64,000 bases of DNA from NCBI RefSeq assembly GCF_002749975.1, contig NZ_PEIG01000023.1, positions 1-64,000 of the forward strand. Direction: 5' to 3'. The position numbers and the translations under genes were made by a program. The notes under the pieces were generated by a model. That model saw only the letters and a program-made list of their open reading frames with translations. It was not told the DNA's origin and made no database searches. This stretch comes from Gloeocapsopsis sp. IPPAS B-1203. Its GTDB lineage: Bacteria > Cyanobacteriota > Cyanobacteriia > Cyanobacteriales > Chroococcidiopsidaceae. Shown one piece after another: positions 48,515 to 60,948 of the stretch. How positions within the stretch are numbered: the first letter of the stretch is position 1; each line of letters starts with the position of its first letter.

Positions 48515-50348
48515 TTTTCAATTGATATCAGTAGATAAGCATAATGAGTCACACTTGATTCATTGCTGCCACGCGCTTTCAAGTTAGGGTTTGTGACGAC
48601 ACATGAAAATGACAAGCCTATTGTCTTTAATGCCTGAAGTATACAAGGGTTGAGTTCTTAAAAATACACAGCCAAGCGCAGTTAAAGATAACTGCGTGTG
48701 CTGAGTTGGAGAATCTCTGGCATAGTACTGAGTACCTTATTTACCTAGCTTTACTTAAGTTAATTTATCTACAGTTCTTTACAATCTTTATCTTTCTTAA
48801 TAAAATGCGAGTTTTTAGCAAGCTTTTCATTGTAGCTGTCACAGCTATAGAGCAAAAACCAAATGAATTAACAGCGATAAATAGACTGTAATTAGCTACA
48901 AGCCCTGCACCTGCTACTTTTATTCTGTTACTCAAAATTAAATGAGTGAAAACTACTACTCAATTTGAAGCTAACTGGTGTGTTGAGCACAACTTATTGC
49001 TGCTTGCTTACTACTGCCTTGATAATAGTACTACTTAAAAGTAACTCTCTATACACTAATCCAGAGCAAATCTTTTAAAATTTGTTTTTTTTTAACTTAT
49101 TTTTAACAAAATTAGGTAAGATAGTTTTGTAATCGCAATCAGGTTTTTCCGTTACAAGATATTAATCAGAGACTTTTCTTTGAGAAAAGTATTATCTTGC
49201 CTTCATAAAATCTTTAAACGCAACTTCATCAAAACTTTAAATAGTGCTTTGAAACTGGCTGCATAAATATCTACACTGGTGCTGAGAAGTTCATATAGTT
49301 TTTAAAATTAAGTTTTTTCTCATCAAACTTAATTTTGAAGCTAAGTCAATCAAAAAAGTACTATGAGAATTACAGATGTTAGATATACAAGGGAATTTAT
49401 TTCTCACGATCAAGAAACAACTTTTAAAAAAGAAAAATATAGCAGGCTTTTCTGGGCAAATGCCGCTATTTGTACAGAACGGAAGCGAGTTTTGTACTTA
49501 AATAAAAAAGAGTTATTGAATACAAGAAGATTTTTGTATAGTAGAATACAGATTTTTTAGTGTTGGTATGTACATACTGTAAATAACACCTGAAAAAAAC
49601 AGAATATTTCAGTATATTTCCTGCCTACAAAAAAACTAAGTCCTAACTGCTAGACAGTTTACCCAGCGTTTTTACGCTGTGGGTTGTTGAAGAAGACACC
49701 ATTAGAGTGCACTTAAACAACCCTAGTTAAGAGGGATAGATCTGCGTAAATTTAACTTAGGATGCAAAAATTTTGATTTCTTTTAGTGCGTTGCAAGTTA
49801 TTAAAAACAATAAATTAAGGGGTAGTTTTTAACAACTAGTTGCGGCAGAAAGTAAGTTCTAAGTAATATCTGGGTATACCGAGTTCTTATTTTAAGATTG
49901 CGATCGCAAACAGAATTCATAGGTAACGTATTCGGAAGATGGTAAGAATACGTATTGACAGCAGCTTCCTTATAAGGATTTGTTGTAATTATAGTGAGCA
50001 GCAAAAGTAAGGGTCTAAGTTCTAGTTCTTTACTTGAGGTTTTTATGTAAATTTTGTATAAAAAATTAAGCTATCTATCTTAGTTAAATGACGACCGCAA
50101 AATTTATTTTTATGTGATTTTGCATAACCTGATTACTTCCAGTTAAATTGATATTTTTTGCTAAATTAATGCTGTAATTTTCCATATTTCCTGGAAATTC
50201 TTTCTTGGTATTGAAGTAGTATAAAGAGCGAAGAATAAAAAACATTCATTGTTGCTTATTTAATTGTGAGGTGGTGTGAAGTTTGGTGTTGAGCTTGCAG
50301 TATAAAAATCAGTTTTTCTAGAGCAGTAGTTGTTATAAGAGGTTTCTA
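48515..50348. other. 1.83-kb gene-poor region carrying structured RNA element A
   Basis: No convincing gene. The region is very AT-rich, with T-runs (49080-49093). Short frames at 48706, 49363 and 49801 lack ribosome-binding sites or recognisable sequence. The notable content is the hairpin element at 49661-49761 and a partial copy of the 45290 hairpin at 49581-49613. Confidence 0.6.
49661..49761 (+). ncRNA. Candidate structured RNA element, copy A
   Basis: Hairpin 1: CAGCGT (49664-49669), TTTT, ACGCTG (49674-49679). Hairpin 2: GGGTTGTT (49681-49688) pairs with AACAACCC (49716-49723), enclosing GAAGAAGACACC...GAGTGCACTT. Hairpin 3: CCTAGTTAA (49722-49730) with TTAACTTAGG (49752-49761). A second copy with compensatory substitutions lies at 52471. 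Function unknown; strand chosen from copy B, which precedes a plus-strand operon. Confidence 0.5.
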
Positions 50349-50765
50349 ATGCCTGGCAAACGTAGTAGTCGTAAAAATGTACCACGCTTTTATTGCCCGT
50401 ACTGCGAGCGGCGATTGTGGCGTTTAGGCAGCCCAAAATATTTTTTATTTTATACAGGAGCATTAGAGATCCAACAAAATGTAGCAAATATGCCACGTCA
50501 AAGTGCAATTGAGTTAGCCGCGAAAGGTGTATACGTTGATAATAATGTCTGGATTGAAGAGTTTTTGTGTGGCGAACACGGCAAGTTATGGATGAAACTC
50601 TGTAGAAAGCCTGATGGTAAATTAAATGTCTCACTAGCAACTAACCAAGATTGGCGAAAAACAACTCGAACAATTAATCCAGAAACACCTAATCCTTCTG
50701 TTGGTGAGTTTACTTACCGTATGAGTCGTCAGGCTTCAGCAAAACTGATTTACACCAGAGATTAA
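50349..50765 (+). CDS. Conserved zinc-ribbon-like hypothetical protein
   Basis: 138 residues. Near the N terminus PRFYCPYCERRLWRLG has a Cys-x-x-Cys pair (about 16-19), and FLCGEHGKLWMKLCRKPDG provides further Cys/His candidates (about 77-90), suggesting a zinc-ribbon. The rest (LATNQDWRKTTRTINPETPNPSVGEFTYRMSRQAS) is basic, consistent with nucleic-acid binding. Family not named. It is preceded by the AT-rich region holding element A and followed by a gene on the other strand. Confidence 0.8.
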   Translation: MPGKRSSRKNVPRFYCPYCERRLWRLGSPKYFLFYTGALEIQQNVANMPRQSAIELAAKGVYVDNNVWIEEFLCGEHGKLWMKLCRKPDGKLNVSLATNQDWRKTTRTINPETPNPSVGEFTYRMSRQASAKLIYTRD

Positions 50766-50823
50766 ACTTTCTATTCATTTGGTAAAAACGCAAATTTCAA
50801 ATCAATGAATAACACAATTTATT

Positions 50824-51726
50824 TTAGCGATTTCGTGAATGATGCAATTGATACAGTCGGTGAGCATTGTGAAACCATTCATAAAGTGAAGTCAGGCGAT
50901 TTTGCTGTGATGCTAAGCTTGAACTACTAAAGTTATTGCGGTGCACTATTTCTTCTAAAAAACTTTGGGTAGTATGTAGGCAAAGATGGGAAGTATCTCG
51001 CAGGCGTGTAAAGTTAATACATAGGTTGTCTGGGTTACTAGCATGAGTAAGAGAAGGTTGAGCATAATTGAGGTAGAGATCTAACCAACTTGCTGGTGTA
51101 ACTTTCGAGCTAAACTGCCGAGCTGGATTGCAAATAAAACTGAATCCTAGAAGTTCTGCACGCTTGTTTGTCGTATCTGCTGTGGAAAAACCCCATTTTT
51201 TTTGTTTTGCACCTGATGAGTATCGAGTAGGATATTCTTGGTGTGTCGAGACAAAAATCTCTAGTTTTTCTTTTAGCTTTAGCAACTCTATGTGTTTAGG
51301 AGACTCTTTTAGCTCCTCTTTAACGTCAACCAAGAGGGAGCAAGCTTGCTCAATTGAAGTAGAAATGTATTCATAAAACAGAGCTTGATCTGCTTCCTCC
51401 AGCAAATACATCAGCGTAATAGTAGCTTCACATAACTGTTCTACCAAAAAATTAATTCCGATTTGATCTTGTTGGTATATTTCCAGTAGAACGTAGGAAT
51501 AGTAGTGGCTACATACTTTGGAGTACAGCCCTAAGATAGCCGAGCTAAAAGGCTCGTCTGTAAAACCTTGAATTGCTCTGACGGCTGACTGAAGTTGTGC
51601 CAAGTACTGGTGTAGCGTTTGGGCAGTTCTCAGAAAGGCATCAGCAAAAGCTTGCTCAGAACTCTCAAGCGAGTCTAAGTTCGGCAAATAAAATTGAACT
51701 TGATTAGATGGCAGTTTTGTATTCAT
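50824..51726 (-). CDS. Helical hypothetical protein, DUF5677-like
   Basis: 300 residues from the ATG at 51726. Strongly helical, with sequence (YSKVCSHYYSYVLLEIYQQDQIGINFLVEQLCEATITLMYLLEEAD, later RAELLGFSFICNPARQFSSKVTPASWLDLYLNYAQPSLTHA) resembling DUF5677-type proteins. No catalytic motif, signal peptide or membrane helix is evident. Function unknown. It is convergent with the zinc-ribbon gene across 58 bp. Confidence 0.75.
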   Translation of the reverse strand: MNTKLPSNQVQFYLPNLDSLESSEQAFADAFLRTAQTLHQYLAQLQSAVRAIQGFTDEPFSSAILGLYSKVCSHYYSYVLLEIYQQDQIGINFLVEQLCEATITLMYLLEEADQALFYEYISTSIEQACSLLVDVKEELKESPKHIELLKLKEKLEIFVSTHQEYPTRYSSGAKQKKWGFSTADTTNKRAELLGFSFICNPARQFSSKVTPASWLDLYLNYAQPSLTHASNPDNLCINFTRLRDTSHLCLHTTQSFLEEIVHRNNFSSSSLASQQNRLTSLYEWFHNAHRLYQLHHSRNR

Positions 51727-52470
51727 CAAAGCCACAACTCAGCTACTTTACATTCTGTGCAGCACACGCCAAAGATGATATGAGGGGGAGACGATCCCGC
51801 CTTTGATCAGGATCACATCTTGTCGTTAACAAAGATCACATGAGGACAAATCTACAGACTTAATTGGTCAAAGCTTAGTTCACAAATGTGAAGTTTGAAA
51901 TGTACAACATTTAGACAACGGATAGGGCTATCCCTCTTAAATACATTAGCTCTATTAGTATCTTACCTAAGATAGGCGACAAGCAGAAAACTTAAAGTAA
52001 TTTACTGCTACTTAGTTAGGTCTCTCTTTTACGATCAACCAGTTTTATGTTCTTTAACTTCTATCAAAAGATAGGTATAGCGTTCAGCCAAAACCTCTCT
52101 GGATAAAAAGGCCTTAGCTACCAATTCTATTACGCTACGCCAACGATATTTGAGTTCATTTTCAAGTATTCTTCTGATAAGTATTGTGACCTAAGTACAA
52201 ATTCAAGGTGACATCTTGCATTTTGTCTTTGGGCTTGTTTCCTTTTCCTCTATGACTATGGTAGGCAACTTAAATGCTCAAGAGCTTATCACTAGACCGA
52301 AACTTCGTCAAATAAATAATGAACAATTAATGATTGAGTTCTGGAATTTTAAGTAAAGTTTGGTTTTTTGTAGCATGACATACAGCATACTAAGTATTAA
52401 ACGTATATAATTTCGACTTAGAATTTAAAGTTGGAAAGGGTAGTAAATACCCTAATATGTATAAGAACTG

Positions 52471-52559
52471 CCAGCGGAGCATCTACGTTGTGGCCTGTTG
52501 AAGAAGACACCAAGAGTGCACTTAAGCAGACCAAGTCAACGGAAAAAGTGTGACTTTTT
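52471..52559 (+). ncRNA. Candidate structured RNA element, copy B
   Basis: Hairpin 1: CAGCG (52472-52476) with CGTTG (52486-52490), a G-U replacing the G-C of copy A. Hairpin 2: GGCCTGTT (52492-52499) with the segment AAGCAGACC (52524-52532), enclosing GAAGAAGACACCAAGAGTGCACTT. Hairpin 3: AAAAAGT (52543-52549), GTG, ACTTTTT (52553-52559), which could end a short transcript. It lies 240 bp upstream of the exopolysaccharide operon. Confidence 0.55.
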
Positions 52560-52634
52560 GAGTCAACGTTTGTTTCAAACAAATAAACTAGGACTGTCTC
52601 ACCTGACTGGAGAGCTTTCCGGTGACAAATAGAT

Positions 52635-52648
52635 AATTGAATTCAATT
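52635..52648. promoter_or_regulatory. Perfect palindrome AATTGAATTCAATT
   Basis: 14-bp self-complementary sequence between RNA element B and the leader terminator. A possible protein-binding site. Confidence 0.35.
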
Positions 52649-52668
52649 GTCATAGCACTTATCAATAG

Positions 52669-52701
52669 CCCATGACCTATAAAATGTGAGGTCATGGGTT
52701 T
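52669..52701 (+). terminator. Leader terminator (possible attenuator) before the exopolysaccharide operon
   Basis: CCCATGACCT (52669-52678) and AGGTCATGGG (52689-52698) form a perfect 10-bp stem with a 10-nt loop, followed by TTTCTTGCTTG. No plus-strand gene ends upstream, so a transcript ending here must start in the leader; read-through would enter the operon at 52800. Confidence 0.72.
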
Positions 52702-52799: not shown

Positions 52800-52982
52800 A
52801 TGTATATAGATGTGTCAAACAAACAGAAGCAGTGGATTACTTTTAAAGTTTCAGAAATGGAAATGAGCGCACTAGAAGCTTATTGCCAACGAACAGAAAG
52901 AACAAAAACAGATGTTTTACGAGAACTCATCCGTAAGTTGCCAACTTACACAAATTCATCAAACCGAAACATCTTGCAGTAA
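52800..52982 (+). CDS. Ribbon-helix-helix (CopG-like) small protein
   Basis: 60 residues. WITFKVSEMEMSALEAYCQRTERTKTDVLRELIRKLP has the ribbon-helix-helix layout: a short strand, helix A, and helix B starting TKTDVLRELIR. Such proteins bind DNA as dimers through the beta strands. It lies directly after the terminator leader and 175 bp before the first glycosyltransferase, so it may regulate the operon (inference). Confidence 0.8.
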   Translation: MYIDVSNKQKQWITFKVSEMEMSALEAYCQRTERTKTDVLRELIRKLPTYTNSSNRNILQ

Positions 52983-53157
52983 GTCGTGAGCAAGTGGATC
53001 GCATTACCGTATGAATACGGCAAAATGTTGTCACTTTTTCTTAATGGGTCACATCAAAGCATGAAGTTATCTTCAGCATTGCTGTGTGAGAACTTTGTAT
53101 TCGCTAAACGCTTACACAAAAATACTGCCTGCCTCTATTCATATTGCGGGTAAGACA

Positions 53158-54177
53158 ATGACTCAAACACTTCAACAACAATCAACACCTTCTAGCATTG
53201 ACAAGACACCGCTGGTAAGTGTCATTATAAACAACTACAACTACGGTCGATTCTTAAATCAAGCCATTGAAAGTGTTTTACACCAGACGTATCAAAACTG
53301 GGAATTGATCGTTGTTGATGATGAGTCAACAGACAATTCTCGTGAAATTATAGAAGCTTACACAGAAAACCTCACAGCTATCTTTCAAAAGAACGCTGGA
53401 CAAGGGGAGGCATTAAACACTGGCATTGCTCATGCGCACGGAGAAATAATTTGTTTTCTCGATGCTGATGACTACTTTCATCAAGACAAACTGATGAAGG
53501 TTGTTGCAGGCTTTTACGAACATCCAGAATGGGTTCAAATTTCCCACTGTTGGACGTCTGTAGACACAGATGGGCTACCTATTGGTCAAGGTTCTACCTT
53601 GCTTAACCAAGGAGATGTGCGCCCTTTGTTATTGCGATGGGGAAGATATGCAATGGGAATTACCTCTGGACTTGCATATCGCCGTGCTGCATTGCAAAAA
53701 GCACTACCTATTCCTACTCGAAAAGCTGCAGCAGCGGATACATATTTAACTGTGGTTGTTCCTTTTTATGGTGAGGTGGGCTGTATCAACGAACCGTTGA
53801 TGTTTTATCGAATACACGGTAACAACAAACAAGCTCGCAATGACAATTTGTCGTATTTAATTCAGGAAAGAGAAGATACAGCCAATTTTATTAATCAGGC
53901 ATCTGCAAACGTAGGGTTAGCTGACCGGTTGAATATGCGACAGGATGTAGACTACCGCACGCTCACAGCACTACAGCAGGGTAATGTTCCTTGGGCAGAA
54001 AAAATGGAGATTATTTGGCTTTCATGGCGAGAAAGCATGGAGATTGGGCGGAGCGCTAAGGATACCCTAGAACGATTGTTACGGCGTGGCATTTGTACTC
54101 TATTTCCTTCTGAAGGTAGAGCAGTTCTGCGTTTAGGACTGCGTGGCTACTTGCGTTTCAAGTTATTCGGTCAATAG
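53158..54177 (+). CDS. Glycosyltransferase family 2
   Basis: 339 residues. GT-A fold: PLVSVIINNYNYGRFLNQAIESVLHQTYQNWELIVVDDESTDNS (about 20-65), then FQKNAGQGEALNTGIAHAHGEIICFLDADDYFHQDKL with the DxD (DADD) metal site, and a Trp-rich helical C-terminal region. It transfers a sugar from a nucleotide donor. An upstream GTG at 53086 opens the frame but the ATG at 53158 fits the family start. It is 12 bp upstream of the Wzc-like gene. Confidence 0.92.
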   Translation: MTQTLQQQSTPSSIDKTPLVSVIINNYNYGRFLNQAIESVLHQTYQNWELIVVDDESTDNSREIIEAYTENLTAIFQKNAGQGEALNTGIAHAHGEIICFLDADDYFHQDKLMKVVAGFYEHPEWVQISHCWTSVDTDGLPIGQGSTLLNQGDVRPLLLRWGRYAMGITSGLAYRRAALQKALPIPTRKAAAADTYLTVVVPFYGEVGCINEPLMFYRIHGNNKQARNDNLSYLIQEREDTANFINQASANVGLADRLNMRQDVDYRTLTALQQGNVPWAEKMEIIWLSWRESMEIGRSAKDTLERLLRRGICTLFPSEGRAVLRLGLRGYLRFKLFGQ

Positions 54178-54189
54178 CTGAGAAAGAAT

Positions 54190-56256
54190 ATGAACCACAT
54201 AGTCAATATCATCCGTAGGCACTGGATGCCATTATTACTGTTGAATGGTGTCATCCTTGCTGGCACATTGTATGCTGTCATCTATACAAAGACGAATGTT
54301 GCTCCTGTATGGAAGGCAAGTGCCAAATTAAATCTTCCCCAACCAACAACACGGTTAGATACTAATTTAGGAACCTTAGGTCAACTGCAAAATTCGGCAT
54401 TAGGATTCACGAGAGAGCTTAATCCTTTACAGATTCAAATGACAATTTTAACCAGCGATACTGTAATGGAACGGGCACTTGCTGTTGATCCAGAAAAAAG
54501 CTTGTATCCACGACTCAGTGATTACAAGTTGGCATTTAGTGCGACACCGCAAGAGCAATCAACGATTATCAATTTACAAGTTAAAGCTTCTAGCCCAGAA
54601 ATTGCGCAAAAGAGGTTAAGTAACCTGATCAATGTTTATCAGCTTCGTCTTAACGAACTGCGCCATCAAGATACAAATGTACGTAAGCAATTTTCTCAAA
54701 CTGATTTAGAAGACGCCCAAGCACAGTTGGCAAAAGCACAGGCGGAGTTAGCCAATTTTCAACAATCAACAGGGCTAACTGAAGTCACAGAGCAAACAAG
54801 ATCGCTGATCAATCAACAGCGTGAGTTAAGAACAACGTATACCAATGTGTTATCACAAGCTCAAGCGAATCAAGCTCAGGCACAAGCAGCTTCTCAACGT
54901 TTGGGAATCAACGCGCAACAGGCAATGAATTCACTTCGTCTAGGAGAAAACAGAGAATACCAAGCGATTCGCCAAAAACTTTCGGATGCTGAAACTGCTT
55001 TGGCAGAAGCAAGAAGTCGGTATACAGATGAAAGTCCGCAAGTCCAATCGTTGTTGTCTCAGCGCGATGAGTTGATGCAGATTATGAACCAACAGATTGC
55101 GATCGCAGCTCCTGGTGCAAGTGCCAATCAAATAGATCCGACGCTGGGTGGTAACGGAACTCGCGACAGCCGCATCGAAATGATTGCTGAACTGATTCGA
55201 TCGCAAAATAATGCTGCTGGCTTGCAGCAACAAGCCAATCAAATTGCTAGCGAGATTAATCGTGTCAACGCAGAACTCAACAGCATTACTCAAAATAGAT
55301 CGCAGCTGATCAACTTGCAGCGGCAATACGAGATTGCAGAGGGAGTGTACAAGAGCATTCTTGGTCAAGTTGAACAAACAAAAACAAATCCCTTCAGCGT
55401 GTATCCTAACGTTCAAACTTTGGATGCTCCTGTCATCGATCCTAAACCGGAAGAACCGAGCAAACGCGCGATCGCTCTTGGTGGCATCTTAGCAGGATTG
55501 TTTGGCAGCATCAGCTTAATTTTCTTCTTAGAAAAGCGCAATCCGATGCTGCGTCCGAAGGATCTCGAACAAGTGGAATTCCCAGTACTGGGGCGGATTT
55601 CTCGCCTCAAACGTACCGATATGGAGCGCAACTTGTCGGGTGAGGTGGCAATCGAGTTACAACGGCTTGCTTCTGCTGTTTTGATGTTAGAGCATCAACG
55701 TTTATTAGTGACAAGTCCTACCTCAGGCGAAGGCAAGACTACTGTCACTTTGGGACTGGCTCTAGCCTTGGTTAACTTTGGTTTTCGCGTGTTGATTGTC
55801 GATGGCGATCTGCGACAAGCTGAACTTAGTCGGCGCTTAGGACAGCTACAAAAGCAACCGAAGAATGGTCAACAAACACCTGTCTCGGTATGTCTGGGAT
55901 TAGACTTGTTGCCAGCACCTAATCTATCAAAAACCAAAATTCCCGAATACTTTGCTCGTGGTAGATTTCAACAAAATTTAGACCAGATTCAAGCAGAAGG
56001 CGGTTATGACTATGTTCTTGTGGATAGCCCACCGATTGGTTTAGCTAGTGAAACAAACTTGATGAGTTCAGTTGTGCGCAATGTCCTGTTTGTGGTGCGT
56101 TCAGGTAAGAGCGATCGCTATGCAGTCATGGATGGCTTTGAACAGCTCGTGCAGCATCACGCCCAAGTTATGGGGCTAGTGGTCAACTATGTTGAACCAA
56201 AAGATGTTGGCTATCGCTATGGACGTCAACGTGAATTACTAGAAACTGAAGCATAA
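54190..56256 (+). CDS. Wzc/GumC-like polysaccharide copolymerase with BY-kinase-type ATPase
   Basis: 688 residues. N-terminal membrane helix (about 13-32), Wzz-type periplasmic domain with a long Gln/Ala-rich coiled coil (about 170-395), a second helix (about 425-445), and a cytoplasmic ATPase domain with Walker A TSPTSGEGKTTVTLG (about 508-522), Walker A' VLIVDGDLRQ (about 537-546) and YVLVDSPP. Such proteins control chain length and export of capsule or exopolysaccharide. The Tyr-rich tail of autokinases is nearly absent: the end is YRYGRQRELLETEA, with only two tyrosines. Confidence 0.92.
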   Translation: MNHIVNIIRRHWMPLLLLNGVILAGTLYAVIYTKTNVAPVWKASAKLNLPQPTTRLDTNLGTLGQLQNSALGFTRELNPLQIQMTILTSDTVMERALAVDPEKSLYPRLSDYKLAFSATPQEQSTIINLQVKASSPEIAQKRLSNLINVYQLRLNELRHQDTNVRKQFSQTDLEDAQAQLAKAQAELANFQQSTGLTEVTEQTRSLINQQRELRTTYTNVLSQAQANQAQAQAASQRLGINAQQAMNSLRLGENREYQAIRQKLSDAETALAEARSRYTDESPQVQSLLSQRDELMQIMNQQIAIAAPGASANQIDPTLGGNGTRDSRIEMIAELIRSQNNAAGLQQQANQIASEINRVNAELNSITQNRSQLINLQRQYEIAEGVYKSILGQVEQTKTNPFSVYPNVQTLDAPVIDPKPEEPSKRAIALGGILAGLFGSISLIFFLEKRNPMLRPKDLEQVEFPVLGRISRLKRTDMERNLSGEVAIELQRLASAVLMLEHQRLLVTSPTSGEGKTTVTLGLALALVNFGFRVLIVDGDLRQAELSRRLGQLQKQPKNGQQTPVSVCLGLDLLPAPNLSKTKIPEYFARGRFQQNLDQIQAEGGYDYVLVDSPPIGLASETNLMSSVVRNVLFVVRSGKSDRYAVMDGFEQLVQHHAQVMGLVVNYVEPKDVGYRYGRQRELLETEA

Positions 56257-56260
56257 AACC

Positions 56261-57640
56261 ATGTCTCATCTCTACCCATCTAAATCTGTCGCCATGCCAG
56301 CCAAAACAAATAATTTGTTTTCAGGTGTCTGGATTCGTTGGCAAGCGCTAAGTTTGGGAGAACGTTTTGTTTGCGCTAATATTCTCCTAATACCAATTTG
56401 GTGGGTTGCCGGTCTTTATCGCTATATGTCCTCACTGTTGCTGTTGGTTGTTGCCATTTATGAATGGCATAAACATGGTGAAATTCGCCTCAAACGCCCA
56501 ACGGTTCCTGTGATGGCTTTCATTGCCTTCGGTGTCTACCAGATTGCAACAATCTTACTCGCTTATTCGGTACCTGGAAGAGATAAGCTTTCTACCGCAC
56601 TGCTACTAACATTTTGTCCAGCATTATGGCTCTGGTATATTCAGAGCAACAACATTAAAATTCGCGTTGAAGTCGTTGCCTGGGCATTTACCATAAGTGT
56701 CGTTCAGATGCTCGTGCTTTGGCTACTTGCCCATTTTGTGATTCCAGAATCTTTCTTCCTACCTCTGCAAATTCGCAATCTATACTCAATGTTAAGTGGG
56801 GAGGAGATCCGTGGCTTTAATGTTATCAACAACCCATATTACCTGCTGCCTTATACAAACTATGGAAATATTAATGGTTGGTGGCGTTATAGTCTCTTTT
56901 TTATCTATCCAGAGTTTTTAGCTATTTACTTGGGATTTGTTAGTTTGATTTCCCGAGAAATCAAAAATCACTTGTGGTCAATTGGTCTACTTTCTGGCTG
57001 TCTGTTTCTACTTTTTTGGAGTGGAACGCGGGCAGTTTGGGTTGCTTTACCCGTTATGCTCATCTTGCATTACATATTGAATAATCTTACGAAACTCTGG
57101 GGACCTACGATTATTTTCGCACTGATGGCAGTTATGAGTTTTACAGCACTAGCCATTCCTCCAGCAACGAACCTGATCGCAACTCAGTTTACACAATCAA
57201 CACAAGCCATTAATGAAGTGCGTGACAATTCGAGTGAGGTGCGATATGAAATCTATCGGCAAACGTGGCAAAGTATCAAAGACAATGAACATAAAATGAT
57301 TTGGGGTCATCCAGCAACAGGTGAAGTTGTCGCTGCTGCCGGCAATAACGACAATGCTGTTGTCGGTTCTCACAGTTTTATCTTAGGAACGCTGCTGTAC
57401 AAAAACGGAATGATTGGCACCGCAATCTTTGCCTTTTTCTGGGTATCGTTATTTGTGTGGTTATATGAAACACGCAGCGGAAGACCAATCAGTTGCTTTT
57501 GCGTGTTAATTCTCTATACGATGATTTCGCCAACATCACCTATCCTCTACGATATGCACATTTCCTCGCTCATCATCTTACTGTGCGTTGCGATTCGTCA
57601 TTCTAAAGTAATTCCTCGCAGGCTCGTGTCACATGCGTAA
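56261..57640 (+). CDS. O-antigen ligase/polymerase-like membrane protein (Wzy/WaaL type)
   Basis: 459 residues with about 11 hydrophobic segments and a large periplasmic loop (about 135-240) before LFWSGTRAVWVALPVML, the O-antigen ligase-type signature region (Wzy_C). It polymerises or ligates lipid-linked repeat units outside the inner membrane. It starts 4 bp after the Wzc-like gene and overlaps the next gene by 8 bp, showing coupled expression. Confidence 0.88.
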   Translation: MSHLYPSKSVAMPAKTNNLFSGVWIRWQALSLGERFVCANILLIPIWWVAGLYRYMSSLLLLVVAIYEWHKHGEIRLKRPTVPVMAFIAFGVYQIATILLAYSVPGRDKLSTALLLTFCPALWLWYIQSNNIKIRVEVVAWAFTISVVQMLVLWLLAHFVIPESFFLPLQIRNLYSMLSGEEIRGFNVINNPYYLLPYTNYGNINGWWRYSLFFIYPEFLAIYLGFVSLISREIKNHLWSIGLLSGCLFLLFWSGTRAVWVALPVMLILHYILNNLTKLWGPTIIFALMAVMSFTALAIPPATNLIATQFTQSTQAINEVRDNSSEVRYEIYRQTWQSIKDNEHKMIWGHPATGEVVAAAGNNDNAVVGSHSFILGTLLYKNGMIGTAIFAFFWVSLFVWLYETRSGRPISCFCVLILYTMISPTSPILYDMHISSLIILLCVAIRHSKVIPRRLVSHA

Positions 57641-58805
57641 GCTTCTAGTTATCCCAGGGTGGTGCAAAAGCTTGGGAGGTAACACCGTTTCACTGTTAGC
57701 GATGGTCAAAGGTTTTCAGCGCAGTGAGTCACAACAAGTTTGTGTTTTGACTCAGGCTGGTTCTTTAGTTGAAGAATATCTGCAGCAACAAGGTTTAGAG
57801 TCTTGCCTCAAGACCATTGTTGCTCAGGATCAGCGCCAGTTTGTGCAGCGTGCACTTCAGTGGGTCAACCAACAGCCGCGTGATTATCCACTCTTGTTAG
57901 AAAACTGTGCAACAAGTAAAACCTTACCTGCGATCGCCTTACACACTGTTTCCTTGCGTCTAAGTCGTCGTCCTGTTTACTATATGTTTCGTGACTTAGC
58001 AATTTCATACAATCCAGTAGGAAACCTTAGTCGCACTGTAGTATTTACTTGTCTTGCACCTCGCATCTTATGTAACTCAAAATTTACGGCTGAAAATGTT
58101 CGCGGTAGATTGGGTGAGATTCAGGGAATTCTACATCCGCCAATAGATCTTGACTTATTTAACACTCGCCCTCCAGTTGGTTCTCCTCCCCAAAAGTTAC
58201 AACCAATCCTAGCTTTAGGTGCACGGATTATTTTAACACCTTCACGAATTAGCAAAGACCCTATCAATGATAAAAATTTGCGATCGCTCCCCATAGTTTT
58301 AGCAGAGTTAAAAGCTGCTGGTCATCACTACCACGGAGTCGTTATTGGACAAGATACATCTTCTGAGCAAACTCGCAGCCGTGCTTTGCTGGCACAAGCT
58401 GAAGATTTAGGAGTTGCAGACAGATTCACAATTCTACCGCCTGCATTGGATATTGAGAACTACTATAAATATGCTGATGTTGTCGTTACCCTCGCACCTA
58501 GAGAACCTTTTGGACGGACTGTTGTTGAAGCGATCGCTTGTGGTGTTCCAGTAGTCGGCAGTAACACTGGTGGTATTGGAGAAATCTTACATAATTTTGC
58601 TCCTCATTGGACAGTAGACCCACACAACCCAGGAGCTGCAGCACAAACAATAGTCCATGTTGTCCATGCTCCTGATACTCCTACTGTCCTTGCTCAAGGT
58701 CAACAATGGGTTGAAGCTAATTGCAGTCTTGTCCCCTACGCTCAGAAAATTATGGAAATTACAGGACTACAATCTCCTCATTTGCAAGAAATACTTGCTT
58801 ACTAA
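57633..58805 (+). CDS. Glycosyltransferase family 4
   Basis: 390 residues, GT-B fold. N-terminal domain begins LLVIPGWCKSLGGNTVSLLAMVKGF; the C-terminal donor domain has ADVVVTLAPREPFGRTVVEAIACGVPVVGSNTGGIGEILHNF (E-x7-E). It overlaps the O-antigen ligase-like gene by 8 bp. Its role is addition of one sugar in the repeat unit or primer; donor unknown. Confidence 0.92.
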   Translation: MRKLLVIPGWCKSLGGNTVSLLAMVKGFQRSESQQVCVLTQAGSLVEEYLQQQGLESCLKTIVAQDQRQFVQRALQWVNQQPRDYPLLLENCATSKTLPAIALHTVSLRLSRRPVYYMFRDLAISYNPVGNLSRTVVFTCLAPRILCNSKFTAENVRGRLGEIQGILHPPIDLDLFNTRPPVGSPPQKLQPILALGARIILTPSRISKDPINDKNLRSLPIVLAELKAAGHHYHGVVIGQDTSSEQTRSRALLAQAEDLGVADRFTILPPALDIENYYKYADVVVTLAPREPFGRTVVEAIACGVPVVGSNTGGIGEILHNFAPHWTVDPHNPGAAAQTIVHVVHAPDTPTVLAQGQQWVEANCSLVPYAQKIMEITGLQSPHLQEILAY

Positions 58806-58897
58806 TTTGAGAAGTACTCAGAAATTTATTGCAGGCAATAAGTATATCCACTGTTGGCTTAACAAAGTCAAGTTAACTTTCAATAATAATGATCGCC

Positions 58898-60016
58898 ATG
58901 AAAAACATTGGCATCTACCGTAGAGTTTTTCCTCTAAAATCAGAAGCCTTTATTAAAGAGCAAACACGTAATTTGTTACGTTATCAACCTACTTTCATCA
59001 CTAACACTCTCATCAATGAAATTCCCTTCCAAAACATTTCTCTAAGTCAAAGTGACTTTTTAGGAATTAAACAAAGTCTTTTTTTGTTAACACGTTCTCC
59101 TCGATTATTTCAACAATCTTCACATTTAAAAAAAGTTGATTTAATTCATGCTCATTTTGGTCCAGATGGTGTTTATGCAATGGCTATAGCTGAAAAACTA
59201 AAAATACCATTTTTAGTAACATTTCATGGCTACGATATCACTATTTCACGCCAAAATTTATGGCGTAAAGGAAAATTTTTATACTATCAGTTGATTCTTC
59301 ATGAAGAAGAATTAAAAAGGAAATCTGCTGCATTTATTGCTGTTTCACGTTTTATTCATAGTAAACTTTTAGAAAAAGAATATCCATCTGAAAAAATTAT
59401 TCAGCACTATATTGGAGTAGATACAGTTAAGTTTTCTCCAGGAGAAAAAGCAGCAGAACGATACATTCTCTGTGTAGCTAGACATACCCAAAAAAAAGGA
59501 ATTGACACCTTATTACGTGCATTTGCGCAGATTGCAAATAAACATTCTGATGTTTCGCTTGTTCAAGTAGGAACGGGTGCTTTAACTAGTGAACTACACA
59601 CTTTAACAAAAGCACTTGGTCTTGAGCATCGCGTACGCTTTCTTGGTGCTCAACCTCATGAAACAGTTTTAGACTTAATGCGTGGTGCAGAAGTTTTTGC
59701 TCTTGCTAGCCAAACTGCTGAGAATGGAGATTGTGAAGGTTTACCCATTGTTATTAATGAAGCCTCTGCCTGTGGCATTCCTGTTATTTCAACTCAACAT
59801 AGTGGAATTCCTGAAGCAATTTTAGATGGTGCAACTGGATTTCTAGTTGCAGAAAGAGACTACACGGCACTAGCAGAAAAACTTGACATTATCCTATCAG
59901 ATCCTAGTTTAGGAAAAAAAATGGGACAGCAAGGTCGCGAGTTGGTTTGTGAGAACTTTGATCTACGTAAACAAACCCTCAAATTAGAAGCTATCTACGA
60001 CTCACTTGCAAGATAG
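58898..60016 (+). CDS. Glycosyltransferase family 4
   Basis: 372 residues. KIPFLVTFHGYDITI in the N-terminal domain; the donor-binding domain has YILCVARHTQKKGIDTLLRAFAQI and VFALASQTAENGDCEGLPIVINEASACGIPVISTQHSGIPEAILDGATGFLV (E-x7-E). It differs enough from the preceding family 4 enzyme to have a distinct acceptor. The ATG at 58898 is preferred to the one three codons upstream because of family starts; both are possible. Confidence 0.92.
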   Translation: MKNIGIYRRVFPLKSEAFIKEQTRNLLRYQPTFITNTLINEIPFQNISLSQSDFLGIKQSLFLLTRSPRLFQQSSHLKKVDLIHAHFGPDGVYAMAIAEKLKIPFLVTFHGYDITISRQNLWRKGKFLYYQLILHEEELKRKSAAFIAVSRFIHSKLLEKEYPSEKIIQHYIGVDTVKFSPGEKAAERYILCVARHTQKKGIDTLLRAFAQIANKHSDVSLVQVGTGALTSELHTLTKALGLEHRVRFLGAQPHETVLDLMRGAEVFALASQTAENGDCEGLPIVINEASACGIPVISTQHSGIPEAILDGATGFLVAERDYTALAEKLDIILSDPSLGKKMGQQGRELVCENFDLRKQTLKLEAIYDSLAR

Positions 60017-60180
60017 TTATAAGCTAGCCCATACCTCAGTAATATCTCATCTTGTTTATTAAAAGTATCAATTGTTATACTCAACAACGCATATGGCAAG
60101 TAACTTAGTAATCACACCTTCTTCTGAGCAAGCTATTAAAATACTAGATGCGATCGCTGCAATCGGTAGTAATGTATTAG

Positions 60181-60948
60181 ATGGTTCGCTTAAGGAAAAA
60201 TTTTTATTTGCACCTTCATAAATGTGGCGGTACTTCAATTACTCAGGCTATTAAAGCCTGCTACCAGAATATTTCTAGTATTACTGAAAACAACACATTT
60301 CATTTAAATGGTGCTGCAGCTTCTAGTGCGGCACACAAAACCTTTGAGGATAATTTAGACTCAGAAAATAATGACTATTTAGTTGGAAAATTTAGAGAGA
60401 ATTTACTACTGTACTACATGTGCCAGCCAAAGATTAATTACATAGCTGGTCACTTCAGTTTCAGTGAGGTTGCTTACCAAAACTTTTCTAATAAGTATGC
60501 ATTTATTACTGTTCTTAGAAATCCAGTTAAAAGATGGATTTCTGCCTATTTCTACAATCGATACACAATCTCTAAACTAGATGAAGACTTTTACGAATTT
60601 TTAAGTTCAGAAAGAGCTTTAAAAGGAGGGTGTATGTATGTCAAAAGTATAGGTGGTCCAAATAAGTCAGGAGATTACACCTCTGAAGATGCTGTGAAAC
60701 GTGCCAAAGAGAATTTACATAAATTTAGTATAGTAGGCTTGCTAGAGCATAAAGAAGAATTTGTTAATCAGTTTGAACAACGATTTGGACGAAAGCTAAA
60801 AATTAGAAGCTACAATCGAAGTATTCAATCAGAAGGTTTCAAAAAGTCTTTTATAACAGAGGAAATAGAAACCAAAATAAAAGAACTTTGCCGCCCCGAT
60901 ATTGAGGTATATGAATATGCTCTCAACCACTTTCTGAAAACTAAATAA
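60181..60948 (+). CDS. Sulfotransferase family 2-like protein
   Basis: 255 residues. The PAPS 5' site is FYLHLHKCGGTSITQAIKACY (about 8-28) and the 3' site is YAFITVLRNPVKRWISAYFYNRYT (about 99-121). Such enzymes sulfate polysaccharide chains. The H-K-C-G-G-T-S form resembles heparan/chondroitin-type carbohydrate sulfotransferases. It is inside the exopolysaccharide operon, after a 165-bp spacer. The gene is AT-rich. Confidence 0.85.
   Translation: MVRLRKNFYLHLHKCGGTSITQAIKACYQNISSITENNTFHLNGAAASSAAHKTFEDNLDSENNDYLVGKFRENLLLYYMCQPKINYIAGHFSFSEVAYQNFSNKYAFITVLRNPVKRWISAYFYNRYTISKLDEDFYEFLSSERALKGGCMYVKSIGGPNKSGDYTSEDAVKRAKENLHKFSIVGLLEHKEEFVNQFEQRFGRKLKIRSYNRSIQSEGFKKSFITEEIETKIKELCRPDIEVYEYALNHFLKTK

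Follow-up and report, generated by a model that had tools for sequence, protein, structure and literature searches.

Two similar hairpin-bearing segments lie in long gene-poor spacers within 64,000 nucleotides of Gloeocapsopsis sp. IPPAS B-1203 DNA (the window), and they raise the question of whether both are copies of one functional RNA and, if so, which genes and which protein partner that RNA serves. The sequence-only reading of the window had proposed a duplicated structured RNA of a family that it did not recognize, citing a shared TGTTGAAGAAGACACCA-(TT)-AGAGTGCACTTAA segment and the same hairpins in both copies. We located this segment in copy A (positions 49685–49716) and, without the TT, in copy B (52496–52525), and a repeat comparison of the two copies gave 29 nt at 90% identity and 27 nt at 81%. 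Copy A occupies 49664–49749 of the + strand (an 84-position model plus insertions) and scores 81.6 bits with covariance model R1 (E 5.3e-19) and 76.5 bits with model R2; copy B, at 52472–52557 of the same strand, scores 86.1 bits (E 3.1e-20) and 79.3 bits. The hairpins agree with those described. In copy A, covariation in homologues and a single-sequence fold place P1 (CAGCG/CGCTG) at 49664–49679 and P2 (GGGTTGTT/AACAACCC), which encloses the conserved inner loop GAAGAAGACACCATTAGAGTGCACTT, at 49681–49723; in copy B, covariation and a folding run place P1 (CAGCG/CGTTG) at 52472–52490 and P2 (GGCCTGTT/AGCAGACC), with the conserved inner loop and one C-A mismatch, at 52492–52532, all on the + strand. 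The copies sit in spacers of about 1.8 kb and 1.1 kb. A search of the 5.9 Mb genome finds the exact core at two places and the reversed control pattern nowhere; a third element copy lies elsewhere in it, on the − strand (C4:381881–381969).

When folded singly, the core of copy A is clearly more stable than expected (z −4.3; 0 of 200 shuffles as good), and that of copy B is not (z +0.3; 118 of 200 shuffles as good). Given that the copy B core folds weakly alone, copies A and B are by themselves insufficient proof of a structure, and this proof comes from homologues. The search of cyanobacterial genomes with a covariance model that the sequence-only reading had suggested returned 109 matches, distributed over 41 of the 388 genomes searched from the order, so that the RNA family extends well past the original pair. 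Members of the family combine two hairpins, the short P1 and the longer P2, the latter carrying the nearly invariant inner loop AGA-AGACACC-n-GAGUG-CA-CU; elements can be arranged in tandem, as in genome G295, where matches lie back to back. In an alignment of 88 distinct copies, which leans towards the model structure because it was built to fit it, 17 of the 19 pairs, including all five of P1, show two-sided changes that keep the pairing; cells with two-sided changes number 288 versus 78.9 in shuffles, and 94.1% of cells are paired versus 22–45% when the partners are slid. An earlier MAFFT alignment of 20 sequences showed two-sided changes in 8 of the 19 pairs (22 cells versus 6.8), and every one of the 11 strongest covarying column pairs is a designed pair, with the caveat that related genomes do not supply independent copies. 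Homologues without pairing-preserving changes, which had been named beforehand as the observation that would speak against a functional RNA, were looked for, and the homologues instead retain the pairing. Two further interactions were considered and set aside. A third helix, P3, which would compete with the base of P2, is not among the top covarying pairs and is not claimed here (65.4% of its cells are paired versus 62.7% in shuffles, with 8 of 500 shuffles as high, and its covariation score is reached by 4 of 500); a pseudoknot between the core GACAC and a tail GTGTC was rejected, as inspection by eye found changed cores (GGTACC, GGAACC) that retain the same tail.

At gathering thresholds, Rfam 15, which includes epsC/EAR, JUMPstart, wcaG, manA and the c-di-GMP riboswitches, has no match in the window or in nine related loci, and with E values up to 10 the interval 49600–52700 yields two weak unrelated matches, neither of them at the elements. 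Among the open-licence papers that our literature searches listed, none describes this RNA motif or the zinc-ribbon-type protein discussed below in its title or the opening of its abstract. Elements A and B apparently belong to a new, so far undescribed family of structured leader RNAs.

The genes that follow the elements bear on how the RNA acts. For 78 of 86 copies, the element and the gene that follows it share a strand (binomial p 8e-16 versus an expected 50%, relatedness ignored), 44 of 90 copies sit between co-directional genes, and the median distance from element to gene is 306 nt; because gene calls came from a longest-ORF script, some neighbor assignments are wrong, and several of the eight opposite-strand cases resemble spurious ORFs. 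Many downstream genes encode glycosyltransferases or other polysaccharide proteins. A Pfam scan of 69 of the 72 distinct downstream proteins (three short or doubtful ORFs were omitted, and families can overlap) found Glycos_transf_2 in 13, Glycos_transf_1 in nine, Bac_transf in four, and WecG/TagA and Epimerase in three each; the zinc-ribbon-type protein is the downstream gene in 11 cases, and NRPS, DAHP synthase, aromatic lyase and WD40 protein genes also occur. Copy B had been placed directly upstream of an exopolysaccharide operon. It does precede that operon (53086–60948, + strand; identified with Pfam), which encodes a GT2 protein, a Wzc/GumC-like protein, a Wzy-like ligase, two GT4 proteins and a sulfotransferase; a small gene that the sequence-only reading did not list stands between them. 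This gene (52800–52982, + strand) starts 242 nt after copy B and encodes a 60-residue ribbon-helix-helix protein of the CopG type (PF01402, E 4.4e-4; its 20.6 bits just exceed the cut-off of 20.5), and the gene after it is the first glycosyltransferase gene of the operon. A relative of the ribbon-helix-helix gene follows an element at one other locus, and copy B precedes the same genes in two genera.

These neighborhoods give the element the look of a leader tied to its downstream genes, not that of a free small RNA, which goes beyond the sequence-only reading. A family of free-standing small RNAs that act in trans from promoters of their own would account for the T-run that follows the conserved tail in some copies and for the hundreds of bases that separate many copies from the next gene, but we consider it very unlikely given the same-strand bias and the frequent position between co-directional genes; moreover, base composition upstream of the elements shows no promoter motif evident by eye, and the elements lack a general 3′-end terminator. 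The candidate for such an end, the conserved 3′ tail after P2, was rejected as a general intrinsic terminator (mean z 0.4 over 88 tails).

Copy A is followed by a gene (50349–50765, + strand) that probably encodes the partner of the RNA. Its product is a basic protein of 138 residues with a putative zinc ribbon (CPxC..CxxH), which we propose as the trans-acting component. A close homolog is present in all 41 RNA-bearing genomes: among the 388 genomes, 41 have both RNA and close protein, none has the RNA only, seven have the close protein only and 340 have neither (Fisher p 1.6e-48, relatedness ignored), with close and distant homologs divided at E < 1e-30, a value chosen after a gap was seen in the list. 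Searches that span more than 40 genomes, as those of the 388 and of the phylum sample below do, apply stricter filters, which lose weak matches; model R2 finds matches, some of them weak, in six of the seven protein-only genomes (E 4e-8 to 0.05), the remaining protein-bearing genome, G097, has no match with R2 either, and none of 13 genomes lacking the close protein is matched at E ≤ 1. In a sample of the phylum (386 genomes, partly the same), the RNA occurs in eight genomes, all of them among the 10 with the close protein. According to a hand-made list of matches, 32 of 48 genomes have an element no more than 1 kb from the protein gene; in 31 of these the two share a strand, and in 22 of the 31 the element is upstream of the gene.

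A riboswitch is a rival explanation of the element. If the loop bound a small molecule, such as a nucleotide second messenger, the protein would be merely a member of the regulon or of the coat pathway; the nearly invariant loop within variable stems does resemble an aptamer, and tandem copies, an EAL domain in one downstream gene (locus L106) and targets that are varied yet often functionally related would all fit. We nevertheless judge a riboswitch unlikely, given that the protein accompanies the RNA in every RNA-bearing genome, including some in which no element was found near the protein gene, and that a free-standing riboswitch should appear in some protein-less genomes; this last contrast is incomplete, as the co-occurrence covers this one family.

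The protein itself matches no Pfam or NCBIfam family above cut-off, and NusG and KOW are absent from the 25 families listed of the 28 Pfam families that 37 members match at E ≤ 10. No PDB profile matches it at E ≤ 0.1, and a Foldseek search with its structure model (pLDDT 80, pTM 0.65) matched no solved fold (best E 0.3); the RNA-binding reading therefore draws on the charge of the protein, its putative metal site and its co-occurrence with the RNA. That the element is instead a DNA repeat, mobile or selfish, that this protein moves, as REP elements are linked with transposases, is suggested by its multiple copies, its patchy distribution and its single accompanying protein. We regard this as highly improbable in view of the compensatory stem changes, the strand and functional bias of the neighbors and the conserved position of copy B in two genera; in addition, no transposase or nuclease family matches the protein above cut-off, and a recombinase zinc-ribbon model is among the weak matches (three of 37 family members, E 0.02).

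We consider it probable, with some reserve, that the elements are cis-acting structured leader RNAs with the zinc-ribbon-type protein as their partner. They would be carried, in the leader or between genes, by transcripts of exopolysaccharide and surface genes and of some others, and the protein and its close homologs would bind them in nascent transcripts, most likely at the P2 inner loop. The most likely output would be co-transcriptional, with the bound element enabling RNA polymerase, by antitermination or attenuation, to pass terminators that lie in the leader or within the operon; such read-through would turn on coat synthesis, and the protein would often control its own gene as well. 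Downstream genes unrelated to polysaccharides and the lack of an RNA match in G097 speak against this model. The termination step taken alone we put at somewhat below an even chance.

Evidence for this step comes from the copy B leader, in which a candidate intrinsic terminator (52667–52700, + strand) consists of a hairpin of 12 bp and, after it, a short T-rich run (−19.0 kcal/mol, z −5.3). The hairpin is found at the same place in six genomes with a stem sequence that differs between two genera, and in the three genomes of the other genus the changed stem ends near a run of nine T. A terminator scan with a loop limit of 8 found none in either window spacer and did not report this hairpin, and promoter-like sites in the spacers are no commoner than in shuffles. 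Against the step, terminators are overall not clearly enriched in leaders. By a threshold set after examples had been seen, strong terminators number 11 in 13.6 kb of leaders versus 22 in 24.4 kb of controls where the upstream gene points away, and 19 in 12.5 kb versus 24 in 38.9 kb where it is co-directional; under a looser criterion, leaders have 1.98 and 2.55 per kb and controls 1.93 and 1.82, with at least one terminator in 18 of 32 and 20 of 39 leaders versus 26 of 80 and 52 of 177 control regions, which are shorter. A pattern scan over 68 leaders yielded 26 sense-strand hits, 18 antisense hits and nine in shuffles. Weak or absent enrichment would suit a protein that binds the leader and acts on translation or mRNA stability, a rather unlikely reading that differs from the one we favor in the output step only, such that the likelihoods of the two overlap; the conserved terminator-like hairpin of the copy B leader speaks against it, and the median of 306 nt to the start codon argues against simple masking of a ribosome site.

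Exopolysaccharide coats underlie desiccation tolerance and biofilms, and to our knowledge their on/off control in cyanobacteria is poorly understood. With a single recognizable RNA and a single co-occurring protein as its markers, the regulon offers direct targets for testing: it predicts, genome by genome, the operons under shared control, names a candidate regulator and may add a family of RNA-binding proteins outside the NusG type. Because the covariance model is portable, the candidate regulon can be marked in any cyanobacterium by a genome search. A bolder reading, which we put below an even chance, is a new RNA–protein pair in which a basic putative zinc-ribbon protein, unmatched by known families or solved folds, would be an RNA-guided antiterminator that switches on exopolysaccharide and other surface clusters across cyanobacteria and controls its own gene by way of this RNA.

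LoaP, a NusG paralog, is one near comparison. LoaP of Bacillus velezensis, which the article's abstract introduces beside NusG, binds a small, UNCG-type RNA hairpin in the 417-nt dfn leader region and promotes terminator read-through, and its gene is often next to polysaccharide or metabolite operons (PMC12691694). In contrast, the element described here has two hairpins and a large conserved inner loop, its proposed partner matches neither NusG nor another Pfam family above cut-off, and its role in antitermination is putative. Among leader RNAs of polysaccharide genes, the epsC motif is known as the EAR element, and JUMPstart, with RfaH/ops, recruits an elongation factor to polysaccharide operons by means of a short conserved element in their leaders. 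JUMPstart is gammaproteobacterial, whereas the element here has no Rfam match and a proposed partner without a NusG-family match. PMC2864571 lists JUMPstart (RF01707) and describes epsC (RF01735) as a structured RNA located where exopolysaccharide genes may have their 5′ UTRs, a link to such leaders that our element shares; epsC, however, belongs to B. subtilis and its relatives, whereas our element, unmatched by Rfam 15 in the window at gathering threshold, occurs at several separate loci in a genome. The same article describes wcaG (RF01761) and manA (RF01745), structured RNAs that are associated with exopolysaccharide or sugar genes and occur in cyanophages, as almost exclusively marine metagenome and cyanophage RNAs (PMC2864571), unlike the element here, which has no Rfam match and whose zinc-ribbon-type protein has no match at E ≤ 1e-3 in 50,697 phage records. 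A viral or phage origin was rejected, the exact core pattern having no match in viral contigs and the protein none in phage records. A plasmid record of Gloeothece verrucosa PCC 7822 carries the protein gene with two elements, and a weak third, around an exopolysaccharide cluster.

A repeat and pattern search of the window finds the shared block and both hairpins (P1 and P2) where the sequence-only reading had placed them, in copy A (49664-49749) and copy B (52472-52557), both on the plus strand. The core has two exact occurrences in the 5.9-Mb genome, and a third copy in the same genome is flanked by an ABC exporter gene and a GT4 gene. Single-sequence folding strongly supports the core of copy A (z = −4.3) and gives no support to that of copy B (z = +0.3), so proof of structure has to come from relatives. 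A DNA search of 19 genomes of the same family recovered diverged copies, and a first covariance model with P1 and P2 was built from 20 aligned copies. Two-sided changes occur at eight of the 19 pairs in this 20-copy alignment (22 such cells vs. 6.8 when shuffled) and at 17 of 19 in an alignment of 88 distinct copies (288 cells vs. 78.9). In the latter, which was fitted to the structure and so leans towards it, 94.1% of cells are paired, compared with 22–45% when partners are slid. When all column pairs are ranked by corrected mutual information, the top 11 are designed pairs. P2 has a nearly invariant inner loop, with two positions that are G in 88 of 88 copies and surroundings of AGA-AGACACC and GAGUG-(C/A)A-CU. 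Neither a third helix, which does not rank among the top covarying pairs, nor a pseudoknot gains support.

The first model matches 12 of the 19 family genomes at E ≤ 0.1, with 2–14 matches per genome, and 41 of 388 genomes across the order at E ≤ 0.01, with 109 matches in total. A second model, which draws on 90 copies, matches eight of 386 genomes in a phylum sample, all eight from the same order as the window. Some elements are clustered: tandem elements lie back to back in G295 (L115 and L116; C27:39640-39803 and C19:52401-52572), two are 46 nt apart in G012 (L088), and three fall inside 1 kb in G006 (L087).

The element is very probably a leader RNA. Four of the 90 copies have no downstream gene; in 78 of the remaining 86 the next downstream gene is on the same strand. 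The median distance from element to gene is 306 nt (10–90% range 55–667), and 44 of the 90 copies lie between two co-directional genes. A Pfam scan covering 69 of 72 different downstream ORFs on the element's strand gives 13 matches to Glycos_transf_2, nine to Glycos_transf_1, four to Bac_transf, and three each to WecG and Epimerase; the 5.9-Mb window genome has 57 Glycos_transf_2 matches, a genome-wide count and not a matched control gene set. Further coat-type downstream genes encode a flippase, a sugar nucleotidyltransferase, and lectin and cadherin-like surface proteins, and one downstream gene (L106:5589-8459) fuses a Polysacc_synt_2 domain to an EAL (c-di-GMP phosphodiesterase) domain. 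Non-coat genes are also found (NRPS, GMC oxidoreductase, esterase, DAHP synthase, and a WD40 protein). In the window, copy A is followed by the gene of a 138-aa protein (50349-50765). The first gene after copy B is of the ribbon-helix-helix type, and the exopolysaccharide operon comes next; L108, a genome of the genus that includes Hydrococcus rivularis, has a relative of this ribbon-helix-helix gene downstream of an element. Gloeothece verrucosa PCC 7822 has a long annotated polysaccharide cluster whose first gene, a GT4 gene, is preceded at 757 nt by an element, and the gene for the close homologue of the window protein, annotated as "hypothetical protein", lies 1.8 kb upstream of that element. 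One plasmid record of this strain carries the protein gene and two elements around an exopolysaccharide cluster, plus a weak third match (L271:3785-3876, 18.7 bits, E = 0.044) upstream of a CheR-type methyltransferase gene.

If the element is a leader RNA, the 138-aa protein is likely its partner. The same protein is encoded by 11 downstream ORFs, whose products have a KRSxRKK-like stretch at the N terminus, pairs of the CPxC type (CPLC, CPHC and the like) and of the CxxH or CxxD type, and NPSVSEFTYRMSR; the window protein has 23 K/R and 12 D/E residues (pI 9.8). No Pfam or NCBIfam family matches it above cut-off, the weak matches including several zinc-ribbon models, and solved structures give no significant match. 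A second, shorter zinc-ribbon-type copy is encoded in the window's genome (G000:C1:171298-171648, E = 8e-44, profile positions 1-118), on a contig where no element was found.

Of the 388 order genomes, 48 have close homologues (E < 1e-30) and 41 have the RNA, all 41 being among the 48; in the 340 genomes without a close homologue, the RNA is found in none at E ≤ 0.01. According to a hand-made match list, 32 of these 48 have an element no more than 1 kb from the protein gene, and 39 have one no more than 10 kb away. The second model matches six of the seven protein-only genomes (E = 4e-8, 5e-5, 2e-4, 0.007, 0.02, and 0.05, the last ones weak), and three of the matches precede the protein gene by 199, 276, and 411 nt, the last of these being the weakest match and partial; G097, with the protein, gives no match, nor do 13 genomes without the close protein at E ≤ 1. 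In the phylum sample, which overlaps the order sample, the RNA is found in eight genomes and the close protein in ten, including all eight. In this comparison, uncorrected for phylogeny, shared ancestry alone is a poor explanation because RNA and protein are jointly absent from relatives within carrier genera: in genus g6, both are present in G012 and missing from five others (three of these 65–88% complete), and in g19, both occur in G030, G113, and G156, neither occurs in G057 or G168, and G097 has the protein only. In a scan of named genomes at E ≤ 1, elements are found at 18 of 27 loci with close homologues (L172-L198), three of them with only matches of E 0.002–0.004, and at none of 30 loci with distant homologues (L199-L228), which may have a different RNA or another role. 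Nostocaceae and Cyanobium/Synechococcus commonly encode distant homologues.

Leader RNAs and RNA-guided antiterminators of polysaccharide operons are already known from JUMPstart/RfaH and the epsC motif, also called EAR. LoaP is a known example of such an antiterminator (PMC12691694) and epsC of such a leader (PMC2864571). As a probable leader RNA of polysaccharide operons, our element is of the same kind as epsC/EAR, JUMPstart/RfaH, and LoaP; its putative partner fits no family of these systems. No Rfam family matches the element in the window and related loci at gathering thresholds, and we found no description of motif or protein in open-licence papers.

With respect to the output step, most elements lie too far from their gene to act simply by masking the ribosome site. 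The leader of copy B contains a hairpin of 12 bp, followed by a T-rich tail (52667-52700, −19.0 kcal/mol, z = −5.3), that is unlikely to terminate the gene upstream of copy B because that gene points away. A terminator scan with loops limited to 8 reports none in either window spacer, and promoter-like sites there are at chance level only. Strong terminators, defined by a threshold chosen after examples were seen, number 1.52 per kb in leaders vs. 0.62 in the control where the upstream gene is co-directional, and are not enriched where it points away (0.81 vs. 0.90); by a looser count, leader rates per kb resemble the control. A pattern scan of leaders finds 26 terminators in sense, 18 in antisense, and nine in shuffles. 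Given these mixed counts, antitermination, which builds on the stronger claims of a leader RNA and of this protein as its partner, stays our leading guess, a tentative one that we place somewhat short of probable. The position of the copy B hairpin is constant in six genomes of two genera, with a stem sequence that differs between the genera and a run of 9 T after it in three of the six. Its loop (52679-52688) is the reverse complement of the same hairpin's loop in Gloeocapsopsis crepidinum (G001), a member of the window's genus, as though an inversion of the hairpin interior separated the two species.
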